Assembly (NCBI GenBank): GCA_020073005.1
Contig: JAIQFX010000059.1
Span: forward strand, 1-64,000
DNA: 64,000 nucleotides
Source of the DNA: Terriglobia bacterium
Lineage (GTDB): Bacteria; Acidobacteriota; Vicinamibacteria; Vicinamibacterales; CAVVIG01
Direction: 5' to 3'
Part shown: in pieces, positions 43,721 through 61,008 of the stretch
Position numbering within the stretch: position 1 is the stretch's first letter
Layout: every line of letters begins with the position of its first letter
Made by a program: the position numbers and the translations under genes
Notes under the pieces: model-generated
What the model saw: the letters and a program-made list of their open reading frames with translations, nothing else
Told to the model about the DNA's origin: nothing
Database searches by the model: none

Positions 43721-44861
43721 GGACGGGCCCCGACGGCGGATGGACGCGCGCGTCGATCAGACGCGCGGCGGCGGCGATCTCGTCGGGCGTAACCTCCTGC
43801 AGGAAGCCGGCGTGCCCGACGGCGAGCGGCACCACGAGATTGATCGCGCCGCGGCGGTGACGCCGGACCTCCTGCAGGCAGCGCCACAGCTCCTCCGCCG
43901 TCAGGAGCGTCTGCGTCACCGGAAGCGCCGCGCGATCGCACAGGTGCAGCAGGCGATCGAGCACGCGGTCGCTGCACAACCCGCGCTCGACGCTCAGCGC
44001 CGTCGACAGCGCCATGTCGATCGCGACCGCCTCGCCGTGCGGCAGCCGGAAGCCCGCCGCCGCCTCGAGGCGCGGGCTGACGCTGTGCCCGAAGTCGACC
44101 AGGCGGCTGCGGCACGCTTCGAAGAGGTTGGGCGCGAGTTCGCCGGCCATCAGGCGTTCGGCGTCGACGGCGACTTCGAGCGCCACGCCGATCGGCTCCT
44201 GGAATCGCGAGCGCAACAGCGCGTCGACGTGCGCCTCCAGCGTGTCGAAGAGCCGCTCGCCGCGGACCATCGCGATCTTGATGATCTCGGCGAGGCCGCA
44301 CGAGATCTGGCGCGGCGGCAGCGTGCGCAGCAGCGACAGATCGTTGATCCCGCAGGCCGGCGGATAGAAGGCGCCGAGCGCGCTCTTCTCGCCCATGAAA
44401 TTGACCGCGTGCTTGATGCCCACGCAGACGTCCACCATCCCCACGAGCGTGGTCGGGATGCGGACGTAGGCGACGCCGCGGCGGAACACGGCCGCGGCCA
44501 GGCCGGCGATGTCGAGCGCGCTGCCTCCGCCGACGCCGACGATGACGCCGTCGCGCGGCAGGCGACGCTCGAGGGCCGCCGCGCAGACGCGCTCGACCTG
44601 CGCCCACGACTTGGCGTCTTCGGTCCCGTCGACGAGGGCGATGCCCGCGAGGCGGAGCCGCCGCGCGCCGTAGCGGCGGATGTCGTCGCCGTACAGCTGA
44701 TGAACGCGGTGATCGACGACGATGAGCACGTCGCGGCCGCCCGCGCGCGCCGCGAGCGTGTTCTCCTGCAGATCGAACACGCCGCGCGTCGTGTGCACGA
44801 CCTCGTAGGAGACATCCCGCGCGGCCCCCACGCGAACCGCGGACGCGTCGGCCTGCATCAT
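43701..44861 (-). CDS. Sedoheptulose-7-phosphate cyclase, 2-epi-5-epi-valiolone synthase type
   Basis: 386 residues from ATG 44861 (a second ATG at 44858; GGAGGAG upstream). Dehydroquinate-synthase fold: NAD site VIVGVGGGSALDIAGLAAAVFRRGV, then VRIPTTLVGMVDVCVGIKHAVNF and EKSALGAFYPP (DHQ synthases have G-G-K-T-G-I-N instead). Sedoheptulose cyclase hallmarks follow: AGELAPNLFEACRSRLVDFGHSVSPRLE and HGEAVAIDMALSTALSVERGL, close to the phrases I know from ValA/AcbC-type enzymes. NLVVPLAVGHAGFL closes the fold. Reaction expected: sedoheptulose 7-phosphate to 2-epi-5-epi-valiolone, the first step to C7N-aminocyclitols. EVS or DDGS sister functions cannot be excluded by eye. Confidence 0.85.
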   Translation of the reverse strand: MMQADASAVRVGAARDVSYEVVHTTRGVFDLQENTLAARAGGRDVLIVVDHRVHQLYGDDIRRYGARRLRLAGIALVDGTEDAKSWAQVERVCAAALERRLPRDGVIVGVGGGSALDIAGLAAAVFRRGVAYVRIPTTLVGMVDVCVGIKHAVNFMGEKSALGAFYPPACGINDLSLLRTLPPRQISCGLAEIIKIAMVRGERLFDTLEAHVDALLRSRFQEPIGVALEVAVDAERLMAGELAPNLFEACRSRLVDFGHSVSPRLEAAAGFRLPHGEAVAIDMALSTALSVERGLCSDRVLDRLLHLCDRAALPVTQTLLTAEELWRCLQEVRRHRRGAINLVVPLAVGHAGFLQEVTPDEIAAAARLIDARVHPPSGPVHAGAGF

Positions 44862-45205
44862 CACTCCTCCCGCGCGCCGAACGCCGTGCCGCAGAGCCGG
44901 GAGACGACCTGCCGGGCCAGCGGCGGCATCGCGGTGAACCGCACGCCGACGAGGTAGTCGTTCGCCAGCGGCAGATCCACGGGATCCTCGTTGCGCAGCG
45001 GCTCGGCCCAGACGACGCGCACCATCAGCCGCGCGGGCAGATGCGGCGTGTTGAGAATCAGCTCGTACTCGCGCCCGGCCGAGAGCGGCGTCGCCGTGCG
45101 GACGCGGGCGCCGGTCGCGCTGATGTCGACCAGGCGGCCGAACTCCGACCCCAGCCTCACTTCGAGCGCGGGCGCCACCACGCGCATTGGCCGTAGCAAT
45201 CGCAT
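44861..45205 (-). CDS. PilZ-domain protein
   Basis: 114 residues, one PilZ beta-barrel: LLRPMRVVAPALEVRLGSEFGRLVDISATGARVRTATPL. The second c-di-GMP motif (D/N-x-S-x-x-G) is DISATG, while the RxxxR motif is loose. The C-terminal strand-helix LVGVRFTAMPPLARQVVSRLC fits the family. It precedes the cyclase with a one-base overlap (TGATG), so c-di-GMP could tune the cyclitol/polysaccharide pathway at protein level. Confidence 0.8.
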   Translation of the reverse strand: MRLLRPMRVVAPALEVRLGSEFGRLVDISATGARVRTATPLSAGREYELILNTPHLPARLMVRVVWAEPLRNEDPVDLPLANDYLVGVRFTAMPPLARQVVSRLCGTAFGAREE

Positions 45206-46993: not shown

Positions 46994-49909
46994 TCAGTGC
47001 CCGTGCCCCAGATGTACGACGCCGCCCGATGGCGCGGACGAGACGTGCGTCGGCTGCCACGCGGCCGGCTGCAGCCCGCGCAGGAATCTGACGAAGCCCG
47101 CCAGCGTCGCCCAGTTCAGCAGGCAGATCACGTACGGCAGCGCGAGCAGGCGCGCGATCCGGCCGCGGCGCCCGCGCGCGAGCACGCCGCCGAGCGCCGC
47201 CGCGTAGAAGAGGATCTGCAGATCCGCCATCGCGCGATAGAACGGCGCGCGCGCGGAGAGCCACACGGCCGCGGCGAGCGCCGCCAGGTGGAGCGGCGGC
47301 AGCAGCAGGCGGAGGCCTTTGTGCGAGACCGTCTGGAACCACAGGCGGTTCCGCAGCGGCGACCACAGCCATCGTTCGCGCGCGAGCAGCTGGAAATTGC
47401 CGGCGCTCGTCCGCACCTTGCGCTCGAGCTCCGCGCGGGCCGAGGGCGCGACACGGTCGAACGCGCGCGCGCCCGGCTCGAAGAGAATGCGGCAGCCCCG
47501 CCGCGCGATCCGCAGCGGAATCAGCACATCGTCGAGGATGGTGTCCGGCGGAATCCGCTCGAAGAGCGCGCGCCGGATCGCGTACACGGCGCCGGTCGCG
47601 CCGATCGTCGAGTCGACGTCGCTCTCGCTCTGCCGGATCACCTTCTCGTAGCGCCAGTACCAGCTCACGCCCCGGCCCGCGGCCGCGCCGGCGCCGTCGT
47701 TCAGCATCAGCTCGCCGGAAACCGCGCCGACGCGCGGGTCGGCGAATGGCGCGACGAGCGCCCAGAGCGCGCCGGCCTCGATCCGCTGGCGCGTGTCGGC
47801 GAGCACGACGATGTCGCCCGTAAGGCGCGGCACCAGGTCGTTCAGCACCGCGGCCTTCCCGCGGCGCCGCGCGAAGGAGAAGACGTGCACGCGCGGCGAG
47901 TCGGCCGCGCGCGCGATCGCCGCCGTGTCGTCGGTCGATCCGTCGGACGCGATGACGACGTCCAGGCGCGGCTCGGGATAGTCGAGCGCCAGCAGGTTGT
48001 CGATCTTGGCCGCGATCGCGTCGCCTTCGTTGTGCGCGATCACGAGAATGCTGACCGACGGCTCGACGCGCCGCCGGCGCCCGGGGCGGGGCCGGATCCG
48101 GGCCCACGCCACGATCAGCAGCGGGTAGCCGGCGTACGTATATATAAGGATGCCGGCCGACGCCCAGAACAGCGCGCGGGCGGCCCGTGCCTGGGCCCCG
48201 TGCAGGGTGCCTGCGCCCGAGCGGCGCGCGCGCGGCGGGTGCGGCGCTGTCGGTTCGGGCCGGGGCTTCAGCACGTCCGCCCCCTGCGCCGCGCCGATGA
48301 GGGCGGCGAGGTCCACACCGGGGGCGCGGCCGTCGGTGCCCGCGTGCAGAAACGGGCTCACGCTGATGAGGCGGAAGTCGTGCCCGCCCCAATCGGCAAA
48401 TCCGACGCCGGCGGGGGAGGCCGGGAAGAAATTGCCCAGCGGATACCGGTCGACCGCGCCCCCGATGATCACGTTGCCCTGGAAGATCGAGTCCGGAAAG
48501 TAGCGATCGATCGACGCGACGCCGAACCCGGCGTCGCCGCCGATGACGCCGTACAGATTGTGCGGGACGATGTTGTTGCGGAACACGAACCGCAGGTGCG
48601 CGATCGTGTCGCCGGCCTGCAGGAAGCTGTCGGTCTGCGCCGCGGCCGTGTTGTGATCGAAGACGACGTCCGACGTGCCGTTCAACAGCTGAAACAGCCG
48701 GCCGTTGCCCCAGGCGCCGCCGATGTCGTCGAACAGGTTGTTCGAGACGAGGATGCGCCGCGTCGGTCCGCTCGGACGGATGTCGTCGCGCCCGAGGACG
48801 TTGAGCCCGCTCGCCGCGTGCCGGACGATGTTGTTGCTGAAGACGACGTCGCCGACCGTCGACCACGGCGCGTGGCCGTCCTGGTTGCGGACCGTGAAGA
48901 GGACGGCGAATCCGTTCTGCGCCGCGGGCCAGTTGTACTCGAACACGTTGCCGTCGACGAGGACGCGCTCCGCGTTCTTCAACTCGAAGAGGTTCTTCAC
49001 GGTCCACGGCGTGCCCGCGTACGTCCGGTCGTCGGCCTTCCACGACAGCGGCTTCACGAAGTGGTTGTGCCGGATCTCGATGTCGGCGGGCACGAGGTTC
49101 ACCGTCGACGGATCGGCGCCGCCGAAGAGCAGGTTCTCGCCCGCCGCTTCGAGATGGTTGTTGACGATCGCGAACGGCCCGGGACCGTCCCATCCGGCAA
49201 TGGCCTGCGAATCGCTGCCGACTTCCTTGAAGTCGGACAGGTACGAATTGATGACCGCCGTCGCGCCGCCGTTCATCGCGACGCCGCGCCGCGAGCCCTT
49301 CACGGGATCGCCGTGCAGGTAGCAGCGATCGAACACGATGTTGGCCGGCGGCGCGAGATCGCGCGACCAGCCGCCGATCAGCACGAGGTTGGTGAGGAAC
49401 TGACCCGGCTCGGGCCGGATCTCGACGCCGACGAAGCGATAGCCGGCGACCCCGGCCGGAATGATGACGACAGGGCCGGGATCGCGAGCCGTGAGCGCCG
49501 GCATCAGGTCGGCGTACGACGGATCGATGCGCGATCCCGCCGGCGGCAGGTCGACCGCCGGCGCGTCGGTCGTGATCACGATTGCGCCCGGGCCCGACTT
49601 CGCGGGCAGCGTGAACGGCCCTTCGTAGACCGCGCCCGCTTCGAGCGCGATCGTGTCGCCCGGCCGCGCCGCGGCGAGCGCGGCGTTCAGATCGCCGTCG
49701 CCTGGCACGGCGATCGTCCGGCCGGTCATCGCGGGCGCCGTGAGGTCGACGTGCACCTGCAGCGCCTGCGGCGGCCGCGCGCGCGTGTCGCGGGCGGGCA
49801 GCGGATGCGTGCCGTCGTACGGCCGGGCGTCCTGGCTCGCGGACGTCGCGTCGAAGACGCCCAGGACGGCGATCGCGAGCGCCAGCGGCAGTCGCATGGT
49901 CTTCGTCAT
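46994..49909 (-). CDS. Fusion of secreted beta-helix domain with membrane GT2 glycosyltransferase
   Basis: 971 residues in one unbroken frame from ATG 49909. Signal peptide MRLPLALAIAVLGVFDATS; beta-helix about 45-545 (LNAALAAARPGDTIALEAGAVYEGPFTLPAKSG; VLVDGNVFEYNWPAAQNG), a close paralogue of the domain at 28961. Pro/Arg-rich linker; helix ALFWASAGILIYTYAGYPLLIVAW; GT2 domain about 620-850 with SVSILVIAHNEGDAIAAKIDNLL, VIASDGSTDDTAAIA, LADTRQRI, TGAVYAIRRALF and DDVLIPLRIARRG; C-terminal helices about 880-955. The topology is consistent: helix outside, GT inside. The alternative is two genes whose intervening stop was lost. Confidence 0.78.
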   Translation of the reverse strand: MTKTMRLPLALAIAVLGVFDATSASQDARPYDGTHPLPARDTRARPPQALQVHVDLTAPAMTGRTIAVPGDGDLNAALAAARPGDTIALEAGAVYEGPFTLPAKSGPGAIVITTDAPAVDLPPAGSRIDPSYADLMPALTARDPGPVVIIPAGVAGYRFVGVEIRPEPGQFLTNLVLIGGWSRDLAPPANIVFDRCYLHGDPVKGSRRGVAMNGGATAVINSYLSDFKEVGSDSQAIAGWDGPGPFAIVNNHLEAAGENLLFGGADPSTVNLVPADIEIRHNHFVKPLSWKADDRTYAGTPWTVKNLFELKNAERVLVDGNVFEYNWPAAQNGFAVLFTVRNQDGHAPWSTVGDVVFSNNIVRHAASGLNVLGRDDIRPSGPTRRILVSNNLFDDIGGAWGNGRLFQLLNGTSDVVFDHNTAAAQTDSFLQAGDTIAHLRFVFRNNIVPHNLYGVIGGDAGFGVASIDRYFPDSIFQGNVIIGGAVDRYPLGNFFPASPAGVGFADWGGHDFRLISVSPFLHAGTDGRAPGVDLAALIGAAQGADVLKPRPEPTAPHPPRARRSGAGTLHGAQARAARALFWASAGILIYTYAGYPLLIVAWARIRPRPGRRRRVEPSVSILVIAHNEGDAIAAKIDNLLALDYPEPRLDVVIASDGSTDDTAAIARAADSPRVHVFSFARRRGKAAVLNDLVPRLTGDIVVLADTRQRIEAGALWALVAPFADPRVGAVSGELMLNDGAGAAAGRGVSWYWRYEKVIRQSESDVDSTIGATGAVYAIRRALFERIPPDTILDDVLIPLRIARRGCRILFEPGARAFDRVAPSARAELERKVRTSAGNFQLLARERWLWSPLRNRLWFQTVSHKGLRLLLPPLHLAALAAAVWLSARAPFYRAMADLQILFYAAALGGVLARGRRGRIARLLALPYVICLLNWATLAGFVRFLRGLQPAAWQPTHVSSAPSGGVVHLGHGH

Positions 49910-51225
49910 GCCGGCTCTAGGACCGCCGGCCGAAGTTGCCCCCGGAGCTGCCCCCGGGTGAGATCCACGACGATGTGGCGTTCGTCGGACGCGTCGAGGA
50001 CGCGCGCGGCGTCGATGCCGGCGTTGCCGATGACGAGCACCTCGGCGTGCCGGAGGATCTCGTCGTGGTCGTCGCACATCAGCGAGGCGATGTGCGGGAT
50101 CTGCTCCTGGATGTAGCGCCGGTTGGCGCCGACCAGGCGCGTCAGCGCGACGCCGTGGTCCAGAATCCTGACGTCGCAGCCCTTGCCGATGAGCGCCTCG
50201 ACCAGCGCGACCATCGGGCTCTCGCGGAGATCGTCGGTGCCGGCCTTGAAGGCGAGTCCGATCACGCCGACGCGGCGCTTGCCGGTGTCGATCACGCTGT
50301 CGACCGCCTTGCGCACGCGCGCGTGGTTGGCCGGCAGCAGCGCCGACAGCAGGGGCAGATCCAGATCGACGCTGCGGCCCGCGGCGAGGAGCGCGCGCAG
50401 ATCCTTCGGCAGGCACGAGCCGCCGAACGCAAAGCCCGGACGCAGGTACGCCTCCGAGACGTTGAGCTTGCGGTCCATGAGGAAGATGCGCATCAGCTCC
50501 TGCGGGTCCACGTCGAACGCCTCGCACACGTCGCCGATCTCGTTCGAGAAACCGATCTTGAGCGCGTGAAACGCGTTGCACGCGTACTTGACGAGCTCCG
50601 CCGTGCGGATGCTGGTCGGGACGAACGGCGCGGTCACCTTGGAGTACAGCGACCGGACGAGCGTGGCGGTCTCCGGATCCGCGCTGCCGACCAGCGTCAT
50701 CGGCGGCTGCGCGAAGTCGCGCAGCGACGATCCCTCGCGCATGAACTCGGGGTTGACGGCGACGCGCACGCGGCGCGCCGCGTCCGCGCCCGCGCCGTCG
50801 AGCAGCGCCGGCAGCAGCGCGCGCTCCGTCGTGCCCGGCAGCACGGTGCTGCGGACGACGACGGTGTACGGAGTGCTGCGAGCGGGCAGCGCGCAGAGGG
50901 CCGTGCCGATGTCGCGCGCGACGCGCTCGACGGCGCCGAGCGACAGCCGGCCGTTCGGACCGCTCGGCGTGCCGACGCAGATCAGCGCGAGGTCCGACGC
51001 AGCCACCGCCTCCTCGACGCTCGTGGTCGCGCGCAGGCGCCCCAGGTGGACGGCGCTCGCGAGCAGCTTGGGCAGTCCGGGCTCGCCGACCGGCGACTCG
51101 GCGTCGTTCACCTGCCCGACCTTCTCGGCGTTCACGTCCGCGCCGGTGACCGTGTGCCCTTCGCCAGCCAGCGACACCGCCGTGACGCAGCCGACGTAGC
51201 CGAGTCCGAACACGCTAATGCGCAT
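49906..51225 (-). CDS. Nucleotide-sugar 6-dehydrogenase, AlgD (GDP-mannose) type
   Basis: 439 residues from ATG 51225. NAD domain RISVFGLGYVGCVTAVSLAGEGHTVTGADVN; middle domain TAELVKYACNAFHALKIGFSNEIGDVCEAFDVD; catalytic Cys in RPGFAFGGSCLPKDLRALL; C-terminal substrate domain VGVIGLAFKAGTDDLRESPMVALVEALIGKGCDVRILD. The run MDRKLNVSEAYLRPGFAFGGSC is closer to AlgD than to UDP-glucose dehydrogenases. Expected product: GDP-mannuronate (or UDP-glucuronate), a uronic building block for the polysaccharide. It fits the lyase-like beta-helix and heparinase-like proteins nearby. Overlaps both neighbours. Confidence 0.9.
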   Translation of the reverse strand: MRISVFGLGYVGCVTAVSLAGEGHTVTGADVNAEKVGQVNDAESPVGEPGLPKLLASAVHLGRLRATTSVEEAVAASDLALICVGTPSGPNGRLSLGAVERVARDIGTALCALPARSTPYTVVVRSTVLPGTTERALLPALLDGAGADAARRVRVAVNPEFMREGSSLRDFAQPPMTLVGSADPETATLVRSLYSKVTAPFVPTSIRTAELVKYACNAFHALKIGFSNEIGDVCEAFDVDPQELMRIFLMDRKLNVSEAYLRPGFAFGGSCLPKDLRALLAAGRSVDLDLPLLSALLPANHARVRKAVDSVIDTGKRRVGVIGLAFKAGTDDLRESPMVALVEALIGKGCDVRILDHGVALTRLVGANRRYIQEQIPHIASLMCDDHDEILRHAEVLVIGNAGIDAARVLDASDERHIVVDLTRGQLRGQLRPAVLEPA

Positions 51226-52450
51226 GCGCTGCCTCCGTGCAGGCGGACTCGAACGCGCGAGCGACCTGCGTCCATGAATACTTTTTCTCGACGAGAAGAC
51301 GTCCGGCCTCACCCAGCGCGCGCCGGCGCTCCGGATCGCGCAGCAGCGAGACCACCGCGTCGGCGAACGGCTGCGCGCCGTCGGCCTGCATGAAGTGGAC
51401 GCCTGAGGTGATCGGCAATCCTTCGGCGCCGACCGAGGTCGACACGACGGCTTTGCCCATCGCGAGCGCCTCGAAGATCTTCAGGCGCGTGCCGCCGCCG
51501 ATGCGCAGCGGCACGACGTACACGCACGCGCGCCCGACGTACGGACGCACGTCGGGCACCGTGCCGGTGACGCGGCCGCCTGCCGCCTCGACCGTTTCGC
51601 GCAGCCGCGCGCTCGGCGTGCGGCCCACGACGCTGAACGTCGTCGAGGGCACCGCCGCGCGGATTCGCGGCAGGATGCCGTCGACGAAGTGCAGGATCGC
51701 GTCTTCGTTCGGATACCAGTCCATCGAGCCGGTGAAGACCAGCTCCGGCCCGGCCGGACGCACGCCGTTGGGGTGGTAGTACGAGGTGTCGACGCCCGTC
51801 GGCACGACGCGCAGCCGCGCGCCCGCGTCCGGCGCCAGCGCGGCCAGGGCGGCGCGATCGGCGTCGGAGACGGCGAGCGTGAGGCGCGCGGCCGAGCACG
51901 CCTGCGACTCGTAGCGGTACATCTTCCGCCACTCGATCTCGAGCAGCGCGCGGCGCGCGGCCCGGCGCTCCACGAGCGCGAGGCGCTTCCAGATCATGTG
52001 CTCGACGTTGTGCTCGAACAGCACGATGGGCACCGCGGCGTCGCCAGAGGGGCGCGACGCGCGCGACAGGTCCGGCACGTTGGGCACGGCCGCCAGGAAA
52101 TCGGCGACGCACACGTCCACGGCCTGACGCCCGAGCCGCCGCGCGGCTTCGGCGCGCAGCGCCGGCACGCGCCAGCGCCACAGATCCACCGGCAGCGACG
52201 ACAGCCACGAGCGGCCGAGCGCCCACGCGAAGCGCGCGCTGCCGTGCTTCGGGCCGTCGTGCGCGACCGAGACGACTTCCACGCGCGGCAGCCGCTCCGC
52301 GAGAGCGTCCGGATCCTCGTGCGCGCCATGCGTTGTCAGGAGCGTCACGTGATGGCGCTCGGAGAGCTGCTTGAGGATGTGAAAACTGCGCAGCCGTCCG
52401 CCCGCGCTCAGCGGCCAGAGCCCGCCGACCTTCACCCAGAGCATCCGCAT
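51215..52450 (-). CDS. GT4-type glycosyltransferase
   Basis: 411 residues from ATG 52450. N-terminal half VKVGGLWPLSAGGRLRSFHILKQLSERHHVTLLTTHG; linker EIEWRKMYRYESQACSAARLTLAVSDADRAAL; donor half VVPTGVDTSYYHPNG, LVFTGSMDWYPNEDAILHFVDGILPRIRAAVPSTTFSVVGR, and RIGGGTRLKIFEALAMGKAVVSTSVGAEGL. The form matches transferases often found with exosortase/PEP-CTERM polysaccharide loci, but no exosortase is present in this window. Confidence 0.9.
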   Translation of the reverse strand: MRMLWVKVGGLWPLSAGGRLRSFHILKQLSERHHVTLLTTHGAHEDPDALAERLPRVEVVSVAHDGPKHGSARFAWALGRSWLSSLPVDLWRWRVPALRAEAARRLGRQAVDVCVADFLAAVPNVPDLSRASRPSGDAAVPIVLFEHNVEHMIWKRLALVERRAARRALLEIEWRKMYRYESQACSAARLTLAVSDADRAALAALAPDAGARLRVVPTGVDTSYYHPNGVRPAGPELVFTGSMDWYPNEDAILHFVDGILPRIRAAVPSTTFSVVGRTPSARLRETVEAAGGRVTGTVPDVRPYVGRACVYVVPLRIGGGTRLKIFEALAMGKAVVSTSVGAEGLPITSGVHFMQADGAQPFADAVVSLLRDPERRRALGEAGRLLVEKKYSWTQVARAFESACTEAAHAH

Positions 52451-54357
52451 CACGCCGCCTTCATGAGATGCGCCGCGTCCTCGCCCTCGACGACGACGCG
52501 ATGCCAGAGTTCGAGGTTGAGCAGCAGCCAGAGGCGATCGCCGTGGCCGCCGACGCCGGCGCGATGCTCGGCGGCGATCCGCTGCAGCGCCGCGGGATCG
52601 AAAAGGCCGCGCGCGAGCGCGCGGCGCCCCAGCACGAACGTCTCGACGAGCGGAAAGAACGATCCGCCGAGCCAGCGGCCGACCGGGACCGGGAAGCCCA
52701 TCTTGCGCCGCGAGAGGATTTCCTGCGGCACGAGTTCCTTCAGCGCGTCGCGCAGCACGGCCTTCGTGGTCACGCCGCGCAGCTTCAGGCGCGAGGGGAG
52801 GGCGACGACGTGCTCGACGAGCGTGTGATCGAGAAACGGCACGCGGCTCTCGATCGACGCGGCCATGCTCATCTGGTCCTGCTTCGTGAGGAGCCGCGCG
52901 AGGTAGGTCTGCAGATCGGCGCGGCTCATCCGGTTCAGCGCGTCGCCGCCGGCGTCGTCGTACCGGCGCATGATCTCGCCGTAGCGATCGCGCGCGGCCA
53001 TCAGCGCGGGACGCGCGAGCACGCGCTGCAGCAGCGCGGACGGAAAAACGGCGAAGTTCTCGCAGAACTGGGCGCGCGGTCCGGCGTCGACCGCCATGAA
53101 GCTGCGCGACGCGTAGCGCCGCAGCGCGCGCGGCAGGCACTCGGTGAGGCGCGCGATCCGTCGCCGGGCTGCGGCCGGAACGAGCCCCCGGTAAGGGGCT
53201 CCCAGCCGCTCGTTCCAAGCCGCAACCCGGTAGCGGTTGTAGCCAAGGAAGAGCTCGTCGGCGCCCTCGCCGGTGAGCACGACCTTGACGTCTTCTCGTG
53301 CGAGACGGGAAACGAAATAGAGCGGGACACTCGACGGAAACGCCAGCGGCTCGTCCTCGTGCCAGATGAGCCGCGGCAGCTCGCGAAAGAAGTCCCGCGG
53401 CGACACGACGATGTCCCGGTGAATCGCGCCGGCCGCGCGCGCCGCCAGCCGCGCGTAGCGCAGCTCGTTGGCGTCGCGATCGGCGAAGCCGACCGAAAAC
53501 GTCCGCACGGGTCCGGCGGTCAGCGGCGCCATCAGCGCGAGCAGTCCCGCCGAATCGAGCCCGCCCGACAGGAACAGGCCGAGCGGAACGTCGCTCATCA
53601 GATGGCTGCGCACCGCGTCGCGCACGCGCGCCTGGATGCCGGCCGCGGCGTCGCGGCGCGAGGCCGGCGGGGCGGCGCCGTACGCGGGGAGCGCCCAATA
53701 GCGGCGCTCCACGAAGCCCGTGCCGCGCGACCACGTCAGCACGCAGCCCGCGCCCAGCCGTTTCACGCCTCGATAGAACGTCTGCTCGCCCGCGACGTAC
53801 CGGTTCGCGAGGTACTCGGGGAGGATCTCTTCGTTCAACTCCGGCCGCAGGCCGCCGGCGACGAGCGCCTTGATTTCCGACGCGAAGAGCAACTGGCCGT
53901 CGCGGAGGGCGTAGTAGAGCGGCTTGATACCGAGCCGATCGCGCGCGAGCAGCAGCCGCTGCCGGCCGCTATCCCACAGCGCGAACGCGAACATGCCCCG
54001 CAGCTCGTCGACGCAGCGATCGCCCAGCTCCTCGTAGAGATGCAGGATCGTTTCCGTGTCGCTGCGCGTCGCGTAGCGGTGCCCCTTCGCCTCCAGCGGC
54101 CCTCGCAGGTCCGCGTGGTTGTAGATCTCGCCGTTGAAGGTGATCCAGATGCGGCCGTCTTCGTTCGACATCGGCTGCCGGCCGCCGGCGACGTCGATGA
54201 TCGCGAGACGGCGATGGCCGAGGCCGACCGGTCCGTCGATGCGGAGTCCCGTCCCGTCGGGGCCGCGATGGCCGAGGACCGCGAGCATGCGCGTCAGGCG
54301 ATCGGCCGCGACCGCTTCGCGCTCGTCGTGCCGGAGGAAGCCTGCGATGCCGCACAT
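52450..54357 (-). CDS. asnB: Asparagine-synthase-type (glutamine-hydrolysing) amidotransferase
   Basis: 635 residues. Glutaminase domain with catalytic Cys 2 (MCGIAGFLRHD), RLAIIDVAGGRQPMSNEDG, NGEIYN, and TRSDTETILHLYEELG; synthetase domain with PP-loop LFLSGGLDSAGLLALM and the second ATP region LTGEGADELFLGYNRY. A full-length AsnB; in polysaccharide loci such proteins amidate uronic acids or sugars rather than make asparagine. With an AlgD-like dehydrogenase two genes away, uronamide formation is a reasonable inference. Confidence 0.92.
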   Translation of the reverse strand: MCGIAGFLRHDEREAVAADRLTRMLAVLGHRGPDGTGLRIDGPVGLGHRRLAIIDVAGGRQPMSNEDGRIWITFNGEIYNHADLRGPLEAKGHRYATRSDTETILHLYEELGDRCVDELRGMFAFALWDSGRQRLLLARDRLGIKPLYYALRDGQLLFASEIKALVAGGLRPELNEEILPEYLANRYVAGEQTFYRGVKRLGAGCVLTWSRGTGFVERRYWALPAYGAAPPASRRDAAAGIQARVRDAVRSHLMSDVPLGLFLSGGLDSAGLLALMAPLTAGPVRTFSVGFADRDANELRYARLAARAAGAIHRDIVVSPRDFFRELPRLIWHEDEPLAFPSSVPLYFVSRLAREDVKVVLTGEGADELFLGYNRYRVAAWNERLGAPYRGLVPAAARRRIARLTECLPRALRRYASRSFMAVDAGPRAQFCENFAVFPSALLQRVLARPALMAARDRYGEIMRRYDDAGGDALNRMSRADLQTYLARLLTKQDQMSMAASIESRVPFLDHTLVEHVVALPSRLKLRGVTTKAVLRDALKELVPQEILSRRKMGFPVPVGRWLGGSFFPLVETFVLGRRALARGLFDPAALQRIAAEHRAGVGGHGDRLWLLLNLELWHRVVVEGEDAAHLMKAA

Positions 54358-54360
54358 AGG

Positions 54361-54430
54361 AAACTCAAAACTGAAAACTGAGAACTGAAAACTGAAGACT
54401 CTTCACTTTTCTCTTTTCACTTTTCACTTT
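54361..54430. repeat. Ten-copy inverted heptamer array
   Basis: Unbroken period of seven over 70 bases: AAACTCA, AAACTGA, AAACTGA, GAACTGA, AAACTGA, AGACTCT, TCACTTT, TCTCTTT, TCACTTT, TCACTTT. The first five and last four units are near-inverse of each other (AAACTGA against the complement AAAGTGA), so a long imperfect stem is possible. It fills the gap between asnB (start 54357) and the end of the IMDH-like gene, whose last codons lie inside it. Confidence 0.8.
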
Positions 54431-55442
54431 GCAGTTCCTCTCTCACCGCGCGGCTGAAGTCCGCGGCGGTGGCGCGCCCGCCGATCGCGAACGGCCGCGC
54501 CGCGCCGACGAGCGCGCGATCGACGGCCGACATGATCCGCGCGTACGCGGTGTGATGCCCCAGGCAGTCGAGCACGAGCGCGCCGGCCCAGATGGCGCCG
54601 AGCGGATTGGCGTACGGCGCGCCGAGCCATTCCGACTCGACGCCGGCCGTCGCGGTCACGATCGGCGGCTGCCAGCCGGAGACGTCGACCTGGACGAGCG
54701 GATCGAGTCCCGCGCACCCGAAGCGCCCCGCGCAGAGCTCCGCCAGCAGCGCCGCGCGGGCGGTCGTCGTGAGAATCACGTCGAGGTGATGGGGATCGGT
54801 GCGGATGGTGAGCGCGGCGGCGGCGACGTCCGCGGTCTCGACGAGCACGCCGGGAACGTTCACCGCGGCGGCGGCCAGCGTGTCCTTCCACGCCTTCGCG
54901 CCGCCGTCGGGATCGTGGGCGTCGGTGACGCACAGCAGCCGCTGGCGTCGCGCGTCGGCGAGCTCGCACGCGAACAGCGCCAGGCGATCGCGCAGGTCGT
55001 CGTCGTGGCGCGCGGCCGGCGGCGCGAGCAGCCAGCGCGAGTCGAGACCTGCGGTCTGCGGCGGGCGGTCGCACCACCGCGCGCCCGGAACCGCGCGAAT
55101 CGACCGCAGCGAGACGTACGGATCCGCGGCCGCCGCGCCGGTGTGGAGCGGCGGATCAATCGCGTAGACGGCGTCCCACGATCCGTTGAGGTGCCGCGCT
55201 TCCCGAATCGCCGAGCCGGTCCACGGCGCGAACTCCAGCGTCAGGCCGTCCTGCGCGGCGATCGTCTGGAGGATCGCGACGGCGGCCTGGCAGACGATCG
55301 CGCCGGCGCCCGGATCGCCGATGCGCAGCGCCACGCGGTGCGTCGCGTGATGGCGCCGCGAGAGGTCGAGCCCGCCCATCGCGGGGGCGACGCACGGCGG
55401 CGCGATCGCGATCGACGTCGGGCGGCCGGGCACGAGGCTCAT
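54417..55442 (-). CDS. Highly diverged isopropylmalate/isocitrate-dehydrogenase-like protein
   Basis: 341 residues from ATG 55442. The order of landmarks follows the LeuB/Icd fold: THRVALRIGDPGAGAIVCQAAVAILQTIAAQDGLTLEF (for I-P-G-D-G-I-G), WDAVYAIDPP, YVSLRSIRAVPG (for L-R-P), RQRLLCVTDAHDPDGG (for the K-x-N region), HHLDVILTTTARAALLAELCAGRFGCAGLDP (for D-V-I-V-T-x-N-L-F-G-D-I-L-S-D), YANPLGAIWAGALVLDCLG (for N-P-x-A-x-I-L-S). The metal Asp pair after L-F-G is gone (AALLAEL), and catalytic Tyr/Lys are not recognisable. It probably lacks the ordinary activity. Its stop lies in the heptamer array, and its start overlaps the PilT-like gene. Confidence 0.7.
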   Translation of the reverse strand: MSLVPGRPTSIAIAPPCVAPAMGGLDLSRRHHATHRVALRIGDPGAGAIVCQAAVAILQTIAAQDGLTLEFAPWTGSAIREARHLNGSWDAVYAIDPPLHTGAAAADPYVSLRSIRAVPGARWCDRPPQTAGLDSRWLLAPPAARHDDDLRDRLALFACELADARRQRLLCVTDAHDPDGGAKAWKDTLAAAAVNVPGVLVETADVAAAALTIRTDPHHLDVILTTTARAALLAELCAGRFGCAGLDPLVQVDVSGWQPPIVTATAGVESEWLGAPYANPLGAIWAGALVLDCLGHHTAYARIMSAVDRALVGAARPFAIGGRATAADFSRAVREELQSEK

Positions 55443-57022
55443 ACCGCCACCGACTGCCACTTTTCGTCGTCCTCGAGCCGCGTGAGGAGCGCGGGCGGCG
55501 CGGGCGCGGCCGGCCGCCGCGGCCGCGCGGCGCGCAGCCGCCGCAGGAAACGGACGCGGTCGGGCGAATGCCGGTACGCCTCGCGCGCTTCGACGAGCCC
55601 GGCCGTCACGTGCGCGATCAGCGCGTCGTTGAGCGGGACGCAGCCGACGCGGCGGCCCTTCTCGATCGCGCGCGGCACGTGTTCGAAGCGATCCTCGGCG
55701 ATGAGCGTCGTGGGCGCCGCGATGTTGACGAGCACCTCGCGCGCCGCGACGCGGCCGCCGCGCAGGCGGCGCAGCAGCACCTGCGCGACGACGCCGCGCA
55801 GGACCTCGGACGTCAGGCGGCGCACGGCGGCGTCGCCCCGCGCCGGACCGAGAAACGCGTCCAGCGCCTCGCCCGCCGTCGCGCCGTTCACGCTCGCGAG
55901 GATGAGACAGTTCGACGATGCGCCCTCGAGGATGGCCGCCATCAGCCCGGGACCGATCGGGGCGTCGAGCGCGATCACGTCGGGCCCTTCGGCCAGCGCG
56001 GATCGCAGCGCGGCCATCCACATCCGCTCGTCGCCCCGTACGAGGCGCTGGCTGATGAGCGCGCGGTGCCGCTCGTGCACGCGGTGGACGGCCGGTTCGA
56101 GCGTGATGGTGTAGGCCGGACGGGCATGGTTGATCCCGTCGACGAGATCGCCGACGAGACTGGTTTTGCCCTGTCTGGGGGGACTGGCAACCAGCACCAG
56201 CCCGTCCGGTTCGTCGCACAGCCGCCGGATGGCCGGCTCGAGCGGCGTGCTGTCTCGCGCGACCGCGGCCGAGCCCCACGCGGCGACCGTGCCGAGGCCG
56301 TGCTGGTCGCGGAAGCTTCGCAGGCGCACGCGGCCGATGTCGCGCAGGTCCGACACCCACTGAAATCCTTCGGGGGCGAACAGCTCGTCGCGCGACAGGT
56401 CGGGCGCGCACTCGCACAGCCAGCGCTCGATCGTGTGCGCGTCGAGCGCCGGTTCGCCGGCGAGCGTGTCGACGGCGCCGTCGACGCGGATCGCCGGCGC
56501 CTGTCCCGGCGCCAGGTACAGCGCGCGCGCGCCGCGCGCCGCGGCCGCGATCAGCAGCCGCCGCATGTCGGTCGCGGCGGCGGTGGTGGCGGCAGGACGC
56601 GCGTCGACGAAAGGCGCGGATGCCGTGGACGGCGTGGCGAGCGCGGGACGAGCCGGCGCGGGCCGCGCGGGCGCCGCCGCGCGCGCGGGTGGCGCAACCG
56701 GCCGTGCCGGCCGGCGCTCGCGCGCGATCTCCACCCACACGTCATCGCCCGCCCACGTCGCCGTGATCACGAAGGGATCGCCGGCGCTCGTGACGGTGGC
56801 CGGCAGCGTTTCGGTGACCGAGCCCGTCTCGCGCAGGCGCGCGATCGCGTCCTGCGGGAGGTAGCGCGCGAGAAACGACGTGATGGTGTCGATGGCCAGC
56901 GGCGACGCGCTCAGCGCCGTCTGCCCGGCGCGCGAGAGCAGCACGGGCATCTCGCCGGCGTGCAGCAGAAGCGCGTCGCTCTCGGTGTCGACGATGCGCT
57001 GCAGGCTCAGGTCGGTGCTCAT
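55439..57022 (-). CDS. Atypical PilT/GspE-like ATPase with duplicated N-terminal domain
   Basis: 527 residues from ATG 57022. Residues 1-100 (LQRIVDTESDALLLHAGEMPVLLSRAGQTAL) and about 148-250 (LLIAAAARGARALYLAPGQAPAIRVDGAVDTL) both resemble the PilT PAS-like N-domain, joined by a Pro/Ala linker. RecA-type domain from about 265: Walker A LVLVASPPRQGKTSLVGDLV (usual G-P-T-G-S-G-K), the Asp-box equivalent AYTITLEPAVHRVHERHRALISQRLV, and a Walker B-like AEGPDVIALDAPIG where the catalytic Glu of 'D-x-I-L-I-G-E-x-R-D' is Ala. The Walker A Lys-Thr is kept, the catalytic Glu lost: nucleotide binding without efficient hydrolysis is likely. No pilus genes are near. Confidence 0.78.
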   Translation of the reverse strand: MSTDLSLQRIVDTESDALLLHAGEMPVLLSRAGQTALSASPLAIDTITSFLARYLPQDAIARLRETGSVTETLPATVTSAGDPFVITATWAGDDVWVEIARERRPARPVAPPARAAAPARPAPARPALATPSTASAPFVDARPAATTAAATDMRRLLIAAAARGARALYLAPGQAPAIRVDGAVDTLAGEPALDAHTIERWLCECAPDLSRDELFAPEGFQWVSDLRDIGRVRLRSFRDQHGLGTVAAWGSAAVARDSTPLEPAIRRLCDEPDGLVLVASPPRQGKTSLVGDLVDGINHARPAYTITLEPAVHRVHERHRALISQRLVRGDERMWMAALRSALAEGPDVIALDAPIGPGLMAAILEGASSNCLILASVNGATAGEALDAFLGPARGDAAVRRLTSEVLRGVVAQVLLRRLRGGRVAAREVLVNIAAPTTLIAEDRFEHVPRAIEKGRRVGCVPLNDALIAHVTAGLVEAREAYRHSPDRVRFLRRLRAARPRRPAAPAPPALLTRLEDDEKWQSVAV

Positions 57023-57762
57023 CGCGTCAACGTCGCCGTCGCCGGCGACCACGAGCAGGGCTCGAGAAAACTCAGCGCCGCGCGGAAGCGCAGCCGGTCG
57101 GCGTCGAGGTACGACACCTGGCATCGCAGCACCAGCGCGCGCAGCATCGACTTCGTGCCGTCGTCGCCGACCAGCGTCACCTCCTGCGCCGTTCCCGGGA
57201 GCAGCCGGATGCCGCTCTCCGCCAGCAGACCGCCCTTCGACAGGTTGAGCAGCGTCAACGCCTGGCCCGAGCGCAGCCGCGCGGCGGGCAGGCCGCACCT
57301 GTCATGACGAACCGCCGCGCGGCGGTCGGTGACAGGTGCGTCTGGTGGGGCGGGTCCGAGGCGAGGGGACGACCGCGCACGCTCGATGGCGGCGATCAGG
57401 CGATCGGCGACGAGGGGCTGGAAGAGGCAGTCGACGGCGCCATGCTGGAGACTTGTTTCCTTGACGCGCAGATCGCGGCGGCCCGCGATCGTGACGACCT
57501 TGGTCCGCGGCGAGAACGCGTGCAGGTCCTGCATGAACGACGGGCTCGTCTGCCCGTCGCCGATCTGCCTGTCGATCGTCGCGTCGCAGACGGCAATCTC
57601 GGGGCGCGTGCGCGACATCGCGGCGAGCGCCTCGGGCGCGCTGCTCGCGCCGGTCACCTGGTACCCGCGATCCTCGAGCCAGCGGCTCAGCAGTCCGCGC
57701 ATTCCCGGCTCCGGCTCGACGACGAGCACCGCGTTGTCGATCGTGTCAATCAGCTCAGGCAT
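57019..57762 (-). CDS. Receiver-PilZ regulatory protein
   Basis: 247 residues. Receiver-like domain 1-130: AVLVVEPEPGMRGLLSRWLEDRGYQVTGASSAPEALAAM, phospho-Asp position in EIAVCDATIDRQ, then VVTIAGRRDLRVKETSLQHGAVDCLFQPL (Lys replaced by Gln). PilZ domain about 145-235: RRAAVRHDRCGLPAARLRSGQALTLLNLSKGGLLAESGIRLLPG, with R-x3-R and N-x-S-x-x-G. It could link phosphorylation or protein contacts to c-di-GMP. It overlaps the PilT-like gene by four bases and heads the three-gene unit ending in the IMDH-like protein. Confidence 0.85.
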   Translation of the reverse strand: MPELIDTIDNAVLVVEPEPGMRGLLSRWLEDRGYQVTGASSAPEALAAMSRTRPEIAVCDATIDRQIGDGQTSPSFMQDLHAFSPRTKVVTIAGRRDLRVKETSLQHGAVDCLFQPLVADRLIAAIERARSSPRLGPAPPDAPVTDRRAAVRHDRCGLPAARLRSGQALTLLNLSKGGLLAESGIRLLPGTAQEVTLVGDDGTKSMLRALVLRCQVSYLDADRLRFRAALSFLEPCSWSPATATLTR

Positions 57763-57823: not shown

Positions 57824-59953
57824 TCACCGCGCCGGCACGGGGGGAATCACATCAGGAGGGGAAAGGAAAACACCCGGCGCCGTCACCTGCACGCCCAGGT
57901 CGTCGAAACGCACGCGTTCGCCGGTGGCGAAGGTCAGGCCGGCCGGCTCGGCGCTCCGGTCGAGGTCGAATTCCGGCGTGACCGCGGGCGCCTCGGCATC
58001 GGGATCGGCCACCGGCTGCAGGACGGTGATGATGCGGAGCGGCAGCGCGGCCGTCGTGGTGTAGACCAGGACCGGCGCCGGCTCACGCTGGCCGTATTCG
58101 CCGGACACCCAGCCCTGGATCGGCGCCAGCGCGCCGCTGAACACGTGCGCGCCGAGCGGCGCCCGGGAAAACGCACGAACGATGAGCGCGTGTTCCGACC
58201 GTCCGCGCGCGCGCGCCTGCAGATCGGTGTCCAGCGACACGGCGATCGGCGCGAACTGGAAGCGCACGTCGATCTTGTGCGTGCCGTCACCCGTCAGATC
58301 GTCGACAACGACCCAGCCGCGGGCTTTCACGAAGACGATGCGGCGGCGATGCACGACGACGCCGCCCAGGCGCCGGAACGCCTCGTGCTCCGCGTCGGCG
58401 TAATCGAACAGCCGGCTCGACCGCCACTCGCGCAGCGTGGCGCGCGGGCGCTCCGACCACTGGAACGGCCCCGTGGAGAACGCCTGCGGTTCATCGTCGA
58501 TCATGACGGTGCTGTGCGCCGCGGTCCCGCGGAAGAACGTGCGGCTGGCGGCGTCGGCCGTGTAGGTGAACGTGCCGGCGTCGACGATGTACGGCTCGCC
58601 GAAGACGGCGCACTGCACGCCGAGCAGATCCGCGTGGCCGTGCCCGCCGGTGATCGGACATCCCAGCGATCCGGCGTCGAAGGTCAACTGATGCCTGGTC
58701 GCCGCCCATCCGCTCTGCATCACGACCCAGCCGCCGTCGGGGAAGCACCGCGAGGACGGCGCCTTCGGCGGCGCGGGCGCCAGCGCGTCGAAGGCCGCGA
58801 GTCCGGCGGGCCCGAGCGTCCAGAGGATCTCCGGCGTCGCGCCGCCCGCGGCCCACGCGCAATCGGCGCGGCCGAACAGCGCGGCGGCCAGCGAGAACAC
58901 GCCGCGGAAGTCGTGCTGCGCGCGCGGCAGCAGCGGCAGCAGCGATCCGCTGTCGGCGTCGCCGATCTGCGGCATCGTGCCGTCGGGCCGGCGGATCGCC
59001 AGCAGGAAATCGAGCAGGCGGTGCAGGCGCTCGATGACGGCGGGCGCCACGGGCTCGCCGGCTTTCGCGCTGAGCATGACGAACTGGAGGTAGATCTCGA
59101 GCGTGTAGCGCGCGTAGCCGGTCGCCTGCTCGAAGTACACGCCGTCGCCGAGGATCTGGCGGTCGCAGTGCTCGACGAGAATGCGGGCGCCGAGCGACCG
59201 CCAGCGCCGCGCGCGCGGCAGGCCGGGCAGCAGGGTGCCGGCGTAGAAGAGCCCGAGCGCTTCGCCGGTCAGGTGCGTGTTCGGCGAGAAGTAGTAGCTC
59301 AGGTACCGCTCGACGTGCGCGGCGTGCCGCTCGATGCCGTTCACGATCAGATCGCGCACCTGCGGCGAGAGCGCCGGCGAGTCGCGGAACAGGCAGAGAG
59401 TCCAGCACCACGAGATCAACCGGAACGCGACCTCGAGGCTGCTGGCCCAGTTGATCCCCATGCCGGGCGGATTCGCGTCGAGCCACCGGCGGATGTTGCC
59501 GGCGGCGATGCAGGCGTAGCGCTCGTCGCGATCCAGCCGGTACGCCTGTGCGAGGCGCACGAGCCACTGGTGCCGGTTCAGCTCCCAGATCACCTTGGCG
59601 TCGCCGACCGCGGCGCTGTCGAGCGGGTTGATGCGGCTCCAGTGGAGCAGCGGCGCGCGGCGGCCCGACACGGGATCGAGATGCCAGTCGATCGGATCGC
59701 CGAAGCCCAGGTTGGCGTAGCCGAGCAGATCGAATTGATGCCGGCACGCGGCGTGGCGCGGCAGATCGGTGCTGCACGCGCCGTCGAAGAAGCGCGCCTC
59801 GGCGAAGGCGGGCGAGCGCGGGCCCAGCGTCGACGGCGCCGCGGCGCGCACCGCGCGCGGCGCCCCCGTCCGCTCGAGCCATTTCCGCGCCTCCTGCCGG
59901 CTCCGGACGACGAGCTCGCCCAATCCCATTTCCCGCAGATGCTGCAGATTCAT
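57824..59953 (-). CDS. Heparinase II/III-family protein (polysaccharide lyase-like)
   Basis: 709 residues from ATG 59953, overlapping the GT4 stop (ATGA). N-terminal alpha/alpha toroid about 90-370: NPLDSAAVGDAKVIWELNRHQWLVRLAQAYRLD, ANPPGMGINWASSLEVAFRLISWCWTL, YYFSPNTHLTGEALGLFYAGTLLPGL and EQATGYARYTLEIYLQFVMLS. Heparinase beta-domain from about 410: GGWVVMQSGW, CPITGGHGHADLLGVQCAVFGEPYIVDAGTFTYTADAASRTFFRGTAAHSTVMIDD (active-site-like His and Tyr). No signal peptide, which is usual for the polysaccharide-locus members. With an AlgD-type dehydrogenase it suggests a uronic-acid-bearing polymer and its lyase. Confidence 0.92.
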   Translation of the reverse strand: MNLQHLREMGLGELVVRSRQEARKWLERTGAPRAVRAAAPSTLGPRSPAFAEARFFDGACSTDLPRHAACRHQFDLLGYANLGFGDPIDWHLDPVSGRRAPLLHWSRINPLDSAAVGDAKVIWELNRHQWLVRLAQAYRLDRDERYACIAAGNIRRWLDANPPGMGINWASSLEVAFRLISWCWTLCLFRDSPALSPQVRDLIVNGIERHAAHVERYLSYYFSPNTHLTGEALGLFYAGTLLPGLPRARRWRSLGARILVEHCDRQILGDGVYFEQATGYARYTLEIYLQFVMLSAKAGEPVAPAVIERLHRLLDFLLAIRRPDGTMPQIGDADSGSLLPLLPRAQHDFRGVFSLAAALFGRADCAWAAGGATPEILWTLGPAGLAAFDALAPAPPKAPSSRCFPDGGWVVMQSGWAATRHQLTFDAGSLGCPITGGHGHADLLGVQCAVFGEPYIVDAGTFTYTADAASRTFFRGTAAHSTVMIDDEPQAFSTGPFQWSERPRATLREWRSSRLFDYADAEHEAFRRLGGVVVHRRRIVFVKARGWVVVDDLTGDGTHKIDVRFQFAPIAVSLDTDLQARARGRSEHALIVRAFSRAPLGAHVFSGALAPIQGWVSGEYGQREPAPVLVYTTTAALPLRIITVLQPVADPDAEAPAVTPEFDLDRSAEPAGLTFATGERVRFDDLGVQVTAPGVFLSPPDVIPPVPAR

Positions 59954-61008
59954 GCGCACGCCTCGGCGTAGACCCGTTCCCATCGTTCGCGTACCTGCGT
60001 CCAGGTGAAGGCTTCGACCTCGGCGCGGGCGCTGCGCGCGAGGCGGCGGGCGAGCGGCTGATGCTCGACGAGCGTCGTGACCGCGTCCGCCATCGCGGCC
60101 GGATCGTCGGGCGGCACGAGGAGTCCGGTCTCGCCGTCGCGCACGAGCGCGGCGAGATCGCCGGCCGGCGTCGACACGACGGGCAGGCCGGCGGCGAACG
60201 CTTCGAGCACCGAGACCGGCTGGTTGTCGAGCGTCGACGAGTTCACGAAGATGTCCGCGGTGTCGTGGAGCGCGGGCATGTCGGCGGGATCCACGCGTCC
60301 GATGAAGCGCACGCCGGTCAGGCCGAGCGCGTCCGCCAGACCGCGGAGCGCGTCGCGCTCGCTCCCGTCGCCCGCGACGGTCAGCGTCGCGTCGCGATAG
60401 CGCCGCTGAATCAGCGCGAACGCGGCGAGGGTGTTGTCGACGCGGTAGTACGGTTCGAGGTTGCGCGTCGAGAGCAGCCGCGGGCCGACCGTCGATCGCG
60501 CCCGGAAGCGGAAGCGCGACGTGTCGACGACGTTTCGCACGACGTGCGCGCAGTAGCCGTGGCGCGCGAAGACGTCACGGAGGTAGTCCGACGGCACGAC
60601 GATCGCGTCCACGAGGCGCAGCCACGGGTGGACCAGCGGTCCCCAGTGCGCAAGATGATCGTCGGCTTCGCCGCTGTGATAGTGGAGGACGATCGGCTTG
60701 TGAAACCGCCGCGCCGCCACGATTGCCGGCACGACGGCCAGCACGAACGAGCAGTACGACGCCGAGAACACGTGGACGACGTCGGCGTCCTGCAGCGTGC
60801 GGAGGCGCGGCAGGTACAGCGCCTGGTTGAGCACCGTGCGCGCGTACGGAAAGCGGCGCACCCACTGGAGCGCGCCGGGAAACGCCGGATCGATGGGCGT
60901 CAGCCTGACGTCATGGCCGGCGTGGCACAGGCCGATGGCGAGCGCCTGGGCCTGCACCGAGTGGCCGCCCACGATGCGCGGGCTCGCGGCGACGAGCGCG
61001 ATCTGCAT
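59950..61008 (-). CDS. GT4-type glycosyltransferase
   Basis: 352 residues. N-terminal VAASPRIVGGHSVQAQALAIGLCHAGHDVRL with the GG acceptor loop; VVHVFSASYCSFVLAVVPAI; VLHYHSGEADDHL; donor half VVRNVVDTSRFRFR, LLSTRNLEPYYRVDNTLAAFALIQRRY, VRFIGRVDPADMPALHDTADIFVNSSTLDNQPVSVLEAFAAGLPVVST (E-x7-E type). First enzyme gene of the minus-strand run after a small protein, coupled to the heparinase-like gene. Confidence 0.92.
   Translation of the reverse strand: MQIALVAASPRIVGGHSVQAQALAIGLCHAGHDVRLTPIDPAFPGALQWVRRFPYARTVLNQALYLPRLRTLQDADVVHVFSASYCSFVLAVVPAIVAARRFHKPIVLHYHSGEADDHLAHWGPLVHPWLRLVDAIVVPSDYLRDVFARHGYCAHVVRNVVDTSRFRFRARSTVGPRLLSTRNLEPYYRVDNTLAAFALIQRRYRDATLTVAGDGSERDALRGLADALGLTGVRFIGRVDPADMPALHDTADIFVNSSTLDNQPVSVLEAFAAGLPVVSTPAGDLAALVRDGETGLLVPPDDPAAMADAVTTLVEHQPLARRLARSARAEVEAFTWTQVRERWERVYAEACA

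Follow-up and report, generated by a model that had tools for sequence, protein, structure and literature searches.

A pseudo-dehydrogenase related to tartrate/D-malate dehydrogenases, encoded with degenerate PilT-like and receiver-PilZ proteins in a polysaccharide cluster of a Terriglobia bacterium

A gene for a protein with the fold of the beta-decarboxylating dehydrogenases (tartrate, isopropylmalate and isocitrate dehydrogenases), whose active site appears to be lost, lies at positions 54417..55442 on the minus strand of the window, the whole 64,000-nucleotide stretch of Terriglobia bacterium DNA that we analysed. This 341-aa protein, which we call the pseudo-dehydrogenase, is encoded in an operon with a degenerate PilT-like P-loop protein and a receiver-PilZ protein, and the operon stands among genes for polysaccharide synthesis. 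Because the fold is present without its catalytic machinery, and because the operon also encodes two partly dead proteins, the pseudo-dehydrogenase probably has a regulatory or structural role instead of acting as an enzyme. In our best explanation, it would descend from a tartrate/D-malate-type dehydrogenase without being an enzyme itself. We further propose, with confidence a little short of even, that the receiver-PilZ, PilT-like and pseudo-dehydrogenase proteins make up a module that responds to c-di-GMP through PilZ within an XrtA-type exopolysaccharide cluster.

The open reading frame is intact, running from an ATG at 55442 to a stop codon at 54417-54419, and a codon model trained on the neighbouring genes favoured its coding status. 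We discounted long plus-strand frames opposite this gene and its partners as antisense frames, the genes being GC-rich. Pfam Iso_dh (PF00180) matched the protein at 7.8e-11 with 42.2 bits (gathering cut-off 27) and its orthologue in G023, a further genome of the genus, with 40.6 bits. The best NCBIfam match was tartrate dehydrogenase (TTC, TIGR02089; 1.2e-25), at 90.2 bits against an equivalog cut-off of 470 bits, while the leuB model scored lower, at 44 bits, and the PDB returned homoisocitrate dehydrogenase (2.6e-13). These single-sequence matches to Pfam, NCBIfam and PDB entries span residues 152-338 only. The N-terminal half by itself scored 13.5 bits on a profile of the canonical enzymes, where the best of 2000 shuffles reached 7.1, a weak but real similarity. 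Profile-profile comparison using hhalign aligned residues 35-340 with the canonical enzymes over 304 columns (probability 99.8%, E 5e-28). On these scores, similarity to Iso_dh is far above chance.

A preliminary description of this DNA had proposed a degenerate, isopropylmalate-dehydrogenase-like protein at this locus. The degenerate dehydrogenase homologue is real and the fold is the one named, but its nearest subfamily, as judged from sequence, is tartrate/D-malate dehydrogenase and not LeuB. The pseudo-dehydrogenase shares an NPLGAIWAGA-type C-terminal sequence with the tartrate/D-malate enzymes. Four canonical Iso_dh enzymes are encoded elsewhere in the same genome (G000), so the metabolic functions are covered. 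A scan of viral contigs for close TTC relatives found none, and other scans of viral contigs gave few canonical relatives.

Fold prediction depended on the sequences supplied. With the two orthologues alone, AlphaFold2 produced an unusable model (pLDDT 38); with seven added canonical relatives or fragments from viral contigs, it reached pLDDT 71 and pTM 0.69. The latter model matched isopropylmalate, isocitrate and tartrate dehydrogenases (Foldseek 3.3e-18, TM 0.74). IPMDH/IDH structures matched it at VIA Z 28-30 (about 29) over 290-310 residues, and the tartrate dehydrogenase of P. putida (TDH, 3flk) was among the structural matches at Z 29.3. The match to the LeuB/Icd fold that the preliminary description had anticipated from fold prediction was obtained with canonical relatives in the alignment, and because of these sequences the model backs the homology without being an independent proof of it. 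Taken together, hhalign and the model indicate that the two-domain IPMDH/IDH fold spans the full length of the pseudo-dehydrogenase.

We aligned the active site of the pseudo-dehydrogenase with those of the four enzymes from its own genome and eight relatives from the class, and cite residues in T. thermophilus IPMDH numbering. The claim that LeuB/Icd landmarks keep their order over the full length stands except for the arm bearing the catalytic Tyr139, which is deleted (about 20 residues net), and the segment ahead of Arg104, which is shortened. Catalytic Lys185 is replaced by Asp in both orthologues, and the metal ligands Asp217, Asp241 and Asp245 are replaced in the two by A/S, A/A and E/D, respectively. 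The substrate arginines Arg94 and Arg132 are gone, and the NAD loop HGSAPDIAG reads AGVESEWLG. Replacement of phosphate/substrate and metal residues, including the change of LFGDILSD to ARAALLAE, had been reported from a first inspection of the sequence, and our alignment reproduces it exactly. The Arg104 equivalent and the ANP motif are kept. Among positions invariant in TTC-type enzymes, the window protein retains 14 of 62 polar, 24 of 59 hydrophobic and 18 of 36 Gly/Pro residues, a pattern in which the chemistry is less well maintained than the fold. The pseudo-dehydrogenase therefore differs from LeuB and isocitrate dehydrogenase, with which it shares the fold, in having no conserved active site, and from the tartrate/D-malate dehydrogenases in having no catalytic Tyr or Lys, no NAD loop and neither of two metal Asp. 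The sequence strongly supports the view that catalysis has been lost.

The coupling to a PilT-like and a receiver-PilZ gene, also described previously, is borne out by two 4-nt ATGA overlaps, at 55439-55442 and 57019-57022. The PilT-like gene (55439..57022, minus strand, 527 aa) overlaps the start of the pseudo-dehydrogenase gene, and the receiver-PilZ gene (57019..57762, minus strand, 247 aa) overlaps the start of the PilT-like gene. In G023, the latter overlap is kept and the junction of the PilT-like and pseudo-dehydrogenase genes is a gap of about 25 nt. Homology of the partners to a PilT ATPase and a receiver holds, but both are degenerate, the first in its catalytic Glu and the second in its acidic pair. 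The PilT-like protein matched TIGR01420 (PilT/PilU) at 1.2e-42, with 146 bits against a curated cut-off of 319 bits, and PilT structures at 1.7e-39. Its catalytic Glu motif VGELRD reads LDAPIG, its Asp box IEDP reads LEPA and its His box LHTT reads VNGA; the P-loop reads SPPRQGKTS, with GKT kept and the remaining glycines lost. A widespread protein with a shared N-terminal domain is its paralogue. The copy of this paralogue in the same genome (L052:7123-9204, contig C29) has the conserved N-terminal domain, the P-loop sequence GPRSSGKRT and a replaced catalytic Glu, and lies in a different neighbourhood that is conserved between this genome (L052) and the relatives examined (L053-L060).

The receiver domain was matched by Response_reg at 5.3e-14. 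Both orthologues carry EP for the acidic pair DD, Ala for Thr/Ser and Gln for Lys, with only the phospho-Asp kept, so that residues of a phosphorylatable receiver are missing and the domain is predicted to be dead. The PilZ motifs RxxxR and [D/N]xSxxG are present (RAAVR...NLSKGG) and their positions are conserved in both orthologues. Pfam PilZ (PF07238) gave no direct match to the protein at E up to 1; a single pairwise comparison related it to a Pfam PilZ protein of the same genome at 1e-17. Among the recognisable functional sites in the three proteins, only this c-di-GMP-binding signature appears complete. A separate single-domain PilZ protein (PF07238, 6.1e-10) is encoded at 44861-45187 on the minus strand in the same polysaccharide cluster; the genome has only three Pfam PilZ matches, this one included.

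Among the genomes searched, the three-gene set is lineage-specific, confined to a pair of genomes from a single genus. For the pseudo-dehydrogenase and the receiver-PilZ protein, orthologues were found in only two of 193 class genomes (G000 and G023), no further orthologue of either was found in a phylum-wide sample of 396 genomes, and a search of genome contigs for more returned only G023. Nearly all other class-genome matches to the pseudo-dehydrogenase cover its C-terminal half, at no more than 104 bits compared with about 700 for the two orthologues. The eight of these matches that we fetched and aligned are canonical enzymes. Our search of the PilT-like family in 27 genomes identified true orthologues in the same two (72% identity) and more distant paralogues elsewhere. 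Gene order within the set is identical in both genomes; conservation of the three genes as a unit, an idea of the preliminary description, is upheld for this pair but, among the genomes searched, does not reach beyond the genus.

The glycosyltransferase, heparinase and amidotransferase genes are adjacent without the three genes in G007, G009 and G025, and in G018 the site between heparinase and amidotransferase holds a small lipoprotein-like ORF (L123:8471-8983). Given this adjacency in relatives, the three genes seem to have been inserted here as a unit. Searches for repeats around them revealed no convincing target-site duplication or flanking repeat. A sister genome that is closer to G000 by the canonical enzyme, G022, is without the module. 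This assembly is 91% complete and also has no close heparinase match, so the whole region is possibly absent from it.

The G023 orthologue of the pseudo-dehydrogenase is intact and 63% identical. Codon positions 1, 2 and 3 are 73, 81 and 59% identical between the two genes, and the excess of identity at second over third positions points to purifying selection. The NG86 estimate of dN/dS is 0.41 at a synonymous divergence of about 0.67, compared with 0.13 for the canonical tartrate-type enzyme (90% identical) in the same two genomes, synonymous estimates being rough in such GC-rich DNA. With no stops or frameshifts in either genome and a dN/dS of 0.41, a pseudogene was ruled out. In the tree, the pair groups with TTC-type enzymes of the class itself (fork support 83/92) on a shared stem of 4.24 changes per column, so long that this placement is unsure, while the tips measure 0.34 and 0.36. 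This pattern resembles rapid remodelling that gave way to moderate constraint, not free decay. As the gene is intact and constrained without an active site, the reading that holds up best is that the protein was recruited as a sensor or structural partner.

In the working that we propose, the PilZ domain would sense c-di-GMP and signal onwards to the pseudo-PilT protein; the latter may be able to bind nucleotide, but hydrolysis by it is not expected. With its two-domain fold kept, and probably its dimer too, the pseudo-dehydrogenase would be the scaffold or docking subunit of a three-protein complex, and this complex would raise or lower polysaccharide synthesis or export. A dN/dS looser than that of the canonical enzyme weighs against this explanation, as do the absence of the module from G022 in spite of its closer relationship, the failure of Pfam itself to detect the PilZ domain, the need for canonical relatives to obtain an adequate structural model and the small number of orthologues, two being too few to map a functional surface.

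Both halves of this proposal have parallels in known systems. Eukaryotic NAD-dependent isocitrate dehydrogenases include subunits that have this dehydrogenase fold and are regulatory (yeast IDH1, human IDH3 gamma; PMC7752914). By analogy, and not as a member of that group, the pseudo-dehydrogenase may use the fold in a regulatory instead of a catalytic role. Those subunits are paired with an active subunit, whereas the operon here contains no active dehydrogenase of the family, and loss of the active site is deeper in the pseudo-dehydrogenase. For M. xanthus, a passage of PMC11656802 citing PMC5544727 states that PilB ATPase-site mutants alter exopolysaccharide, pointing to signalling by the motor protein itself. 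The placement of a PilT-family protein beside a PilZ protein resembles PilT/PilB ATPases with PilZ partners. It differs from them in that the PilT-like protein is without its catalytic Glu, lies in a polysaccharide cluster and has a pseudo-dehydrogenase as third member.

As a pure scaffold, the pseudo-dehydrogenase would stabilise either a glycosyltransferase complex or the pseudo-PilT assembly and have nothing to do with c-di-GMP; we consider this somewhat unlikely. Better survival of hydrophobic and Gly/Pro fold positions than of polar ones agrees with such a role, and no former ligand site is intact in the protein, but the translation-coupled set includes a receiver-PilZ protein with an intact c-di-GMP signature. 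We doubt more strongly that the interdomain cleft has been remodelled as a binding site for a sugar-nucleotide or organic acid, whose presence the protein would report to the PilZ and PilT-like partners. At some former active-site positions the two orthologues share the same new residue (K185->D, D241->A), and the eukaryotic regulatory subunits have an allosteric site in the same fold (PMC7752914). Against this, the stretches that once formed the active site belong to the less conserved portions of the protein (57-60% identity between orthologues, compared with 73-76% at the C-terminus and in the N-terminal strand/helix), which is not what a maintained ligand site would show.

The least likely explanations are slow decay and residual enzymatic activity. 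Slow decay would make the gene a redundant paralogue carried in the polysaccharide cluster and heading for loss, which the roughly threefold higher dN/dS and the absence from G022 would fit; it is improbable given that the gene is intact in both genomes at a synonymous divergence of about 0.67, that second codon positions are more conserved than third and that the tip branches are far shorter than the stem. An enzyme of altered chemistry could draw on the retained fold, the equivalent of Arg104 and an acidic residue that is kept (D245->E/D), but is very improbable because both orthologues have lost the NAD loop, two metal Asp and the catalytic residues Lys and Tyr.

Recruitment of pseudoenzymes is an already known kind of event, and what is unusual here is the three-gene unit. 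Our searches of an open literature library found no description of a PilZ/PilT/EPS system in Acidobacteria and none of a pseudo-isopropylmalate dehydrogenase of such a kind. It is possible, though we place it well under even confidence, that three concurrently degenerate proteins form an undescribed signalling module that takes c-di-GMP as its input and governs an exopolysaccharide machine, the dehydrogenase fold being its effector or scaffold. If so, this would be a bacterial case in which a dehydrogenase fold of central metabolism has become a non-catalytic part of a c-di-GMP/polysaccharide system, beside a dead PilT-type motor, and signalling by PilB/PilT-type proteins to polysaccharide synthesis would extend beyond active pilus motors. 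The distribution in two genomes of one genus limits the general weight of such a case. The unit is compact and can be deleted and reconstituted.

The polysaccharide setting given in the preliminary description agrees with our annotation of the flanks, where all genes lie on the minus strand. Downstream of the pseudo-dehydrogenase is an XrtA-type asparagine synthase/amidotransferase (52450..54357; TIGR03108 2e-165, below its own cut-off; syntenic in G023), and further genes encode a glycosyltransferase (51215..52450; TIGR03087 9.8e-68, below cut-off) and a UDP-glucose/GDP-mannose dehydrogenase family protein (49906..51225; PF03721, PF00984, PF03720). Upstream of the receiver-PilZ gene are a heparinase II/III family protein (57824..59953; PF07940, PF16889) and a family 4 glycosyltransferase (59950..61008; PF00534 3.6e-33). 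The cluster extends past the window. A second XrtA-type amidotransferase is encoded on the same contig beyond the window (L063:3242-5173; TIGR03108 5e-200), with a deacetylase-like gene nearby. Within the window, an ORF at 46994-49909 (minus strand, 971 aa) matches PgaC-like glycosyltransferases in its C-terminal residues 612-858; no NCBIfam family matches the first half, which gives matches on its own in some relatives. The intergenic DNA between the pseudo-dehydrogenase and amidotransferase genes contains a AACTGAAAACTGAAAACT-like repeat (54362-54407), of which an exact 18-mer occurs in nine copies in the genome compared with none for the reversed control. A similar repeat seems to be present at the same place in G023.
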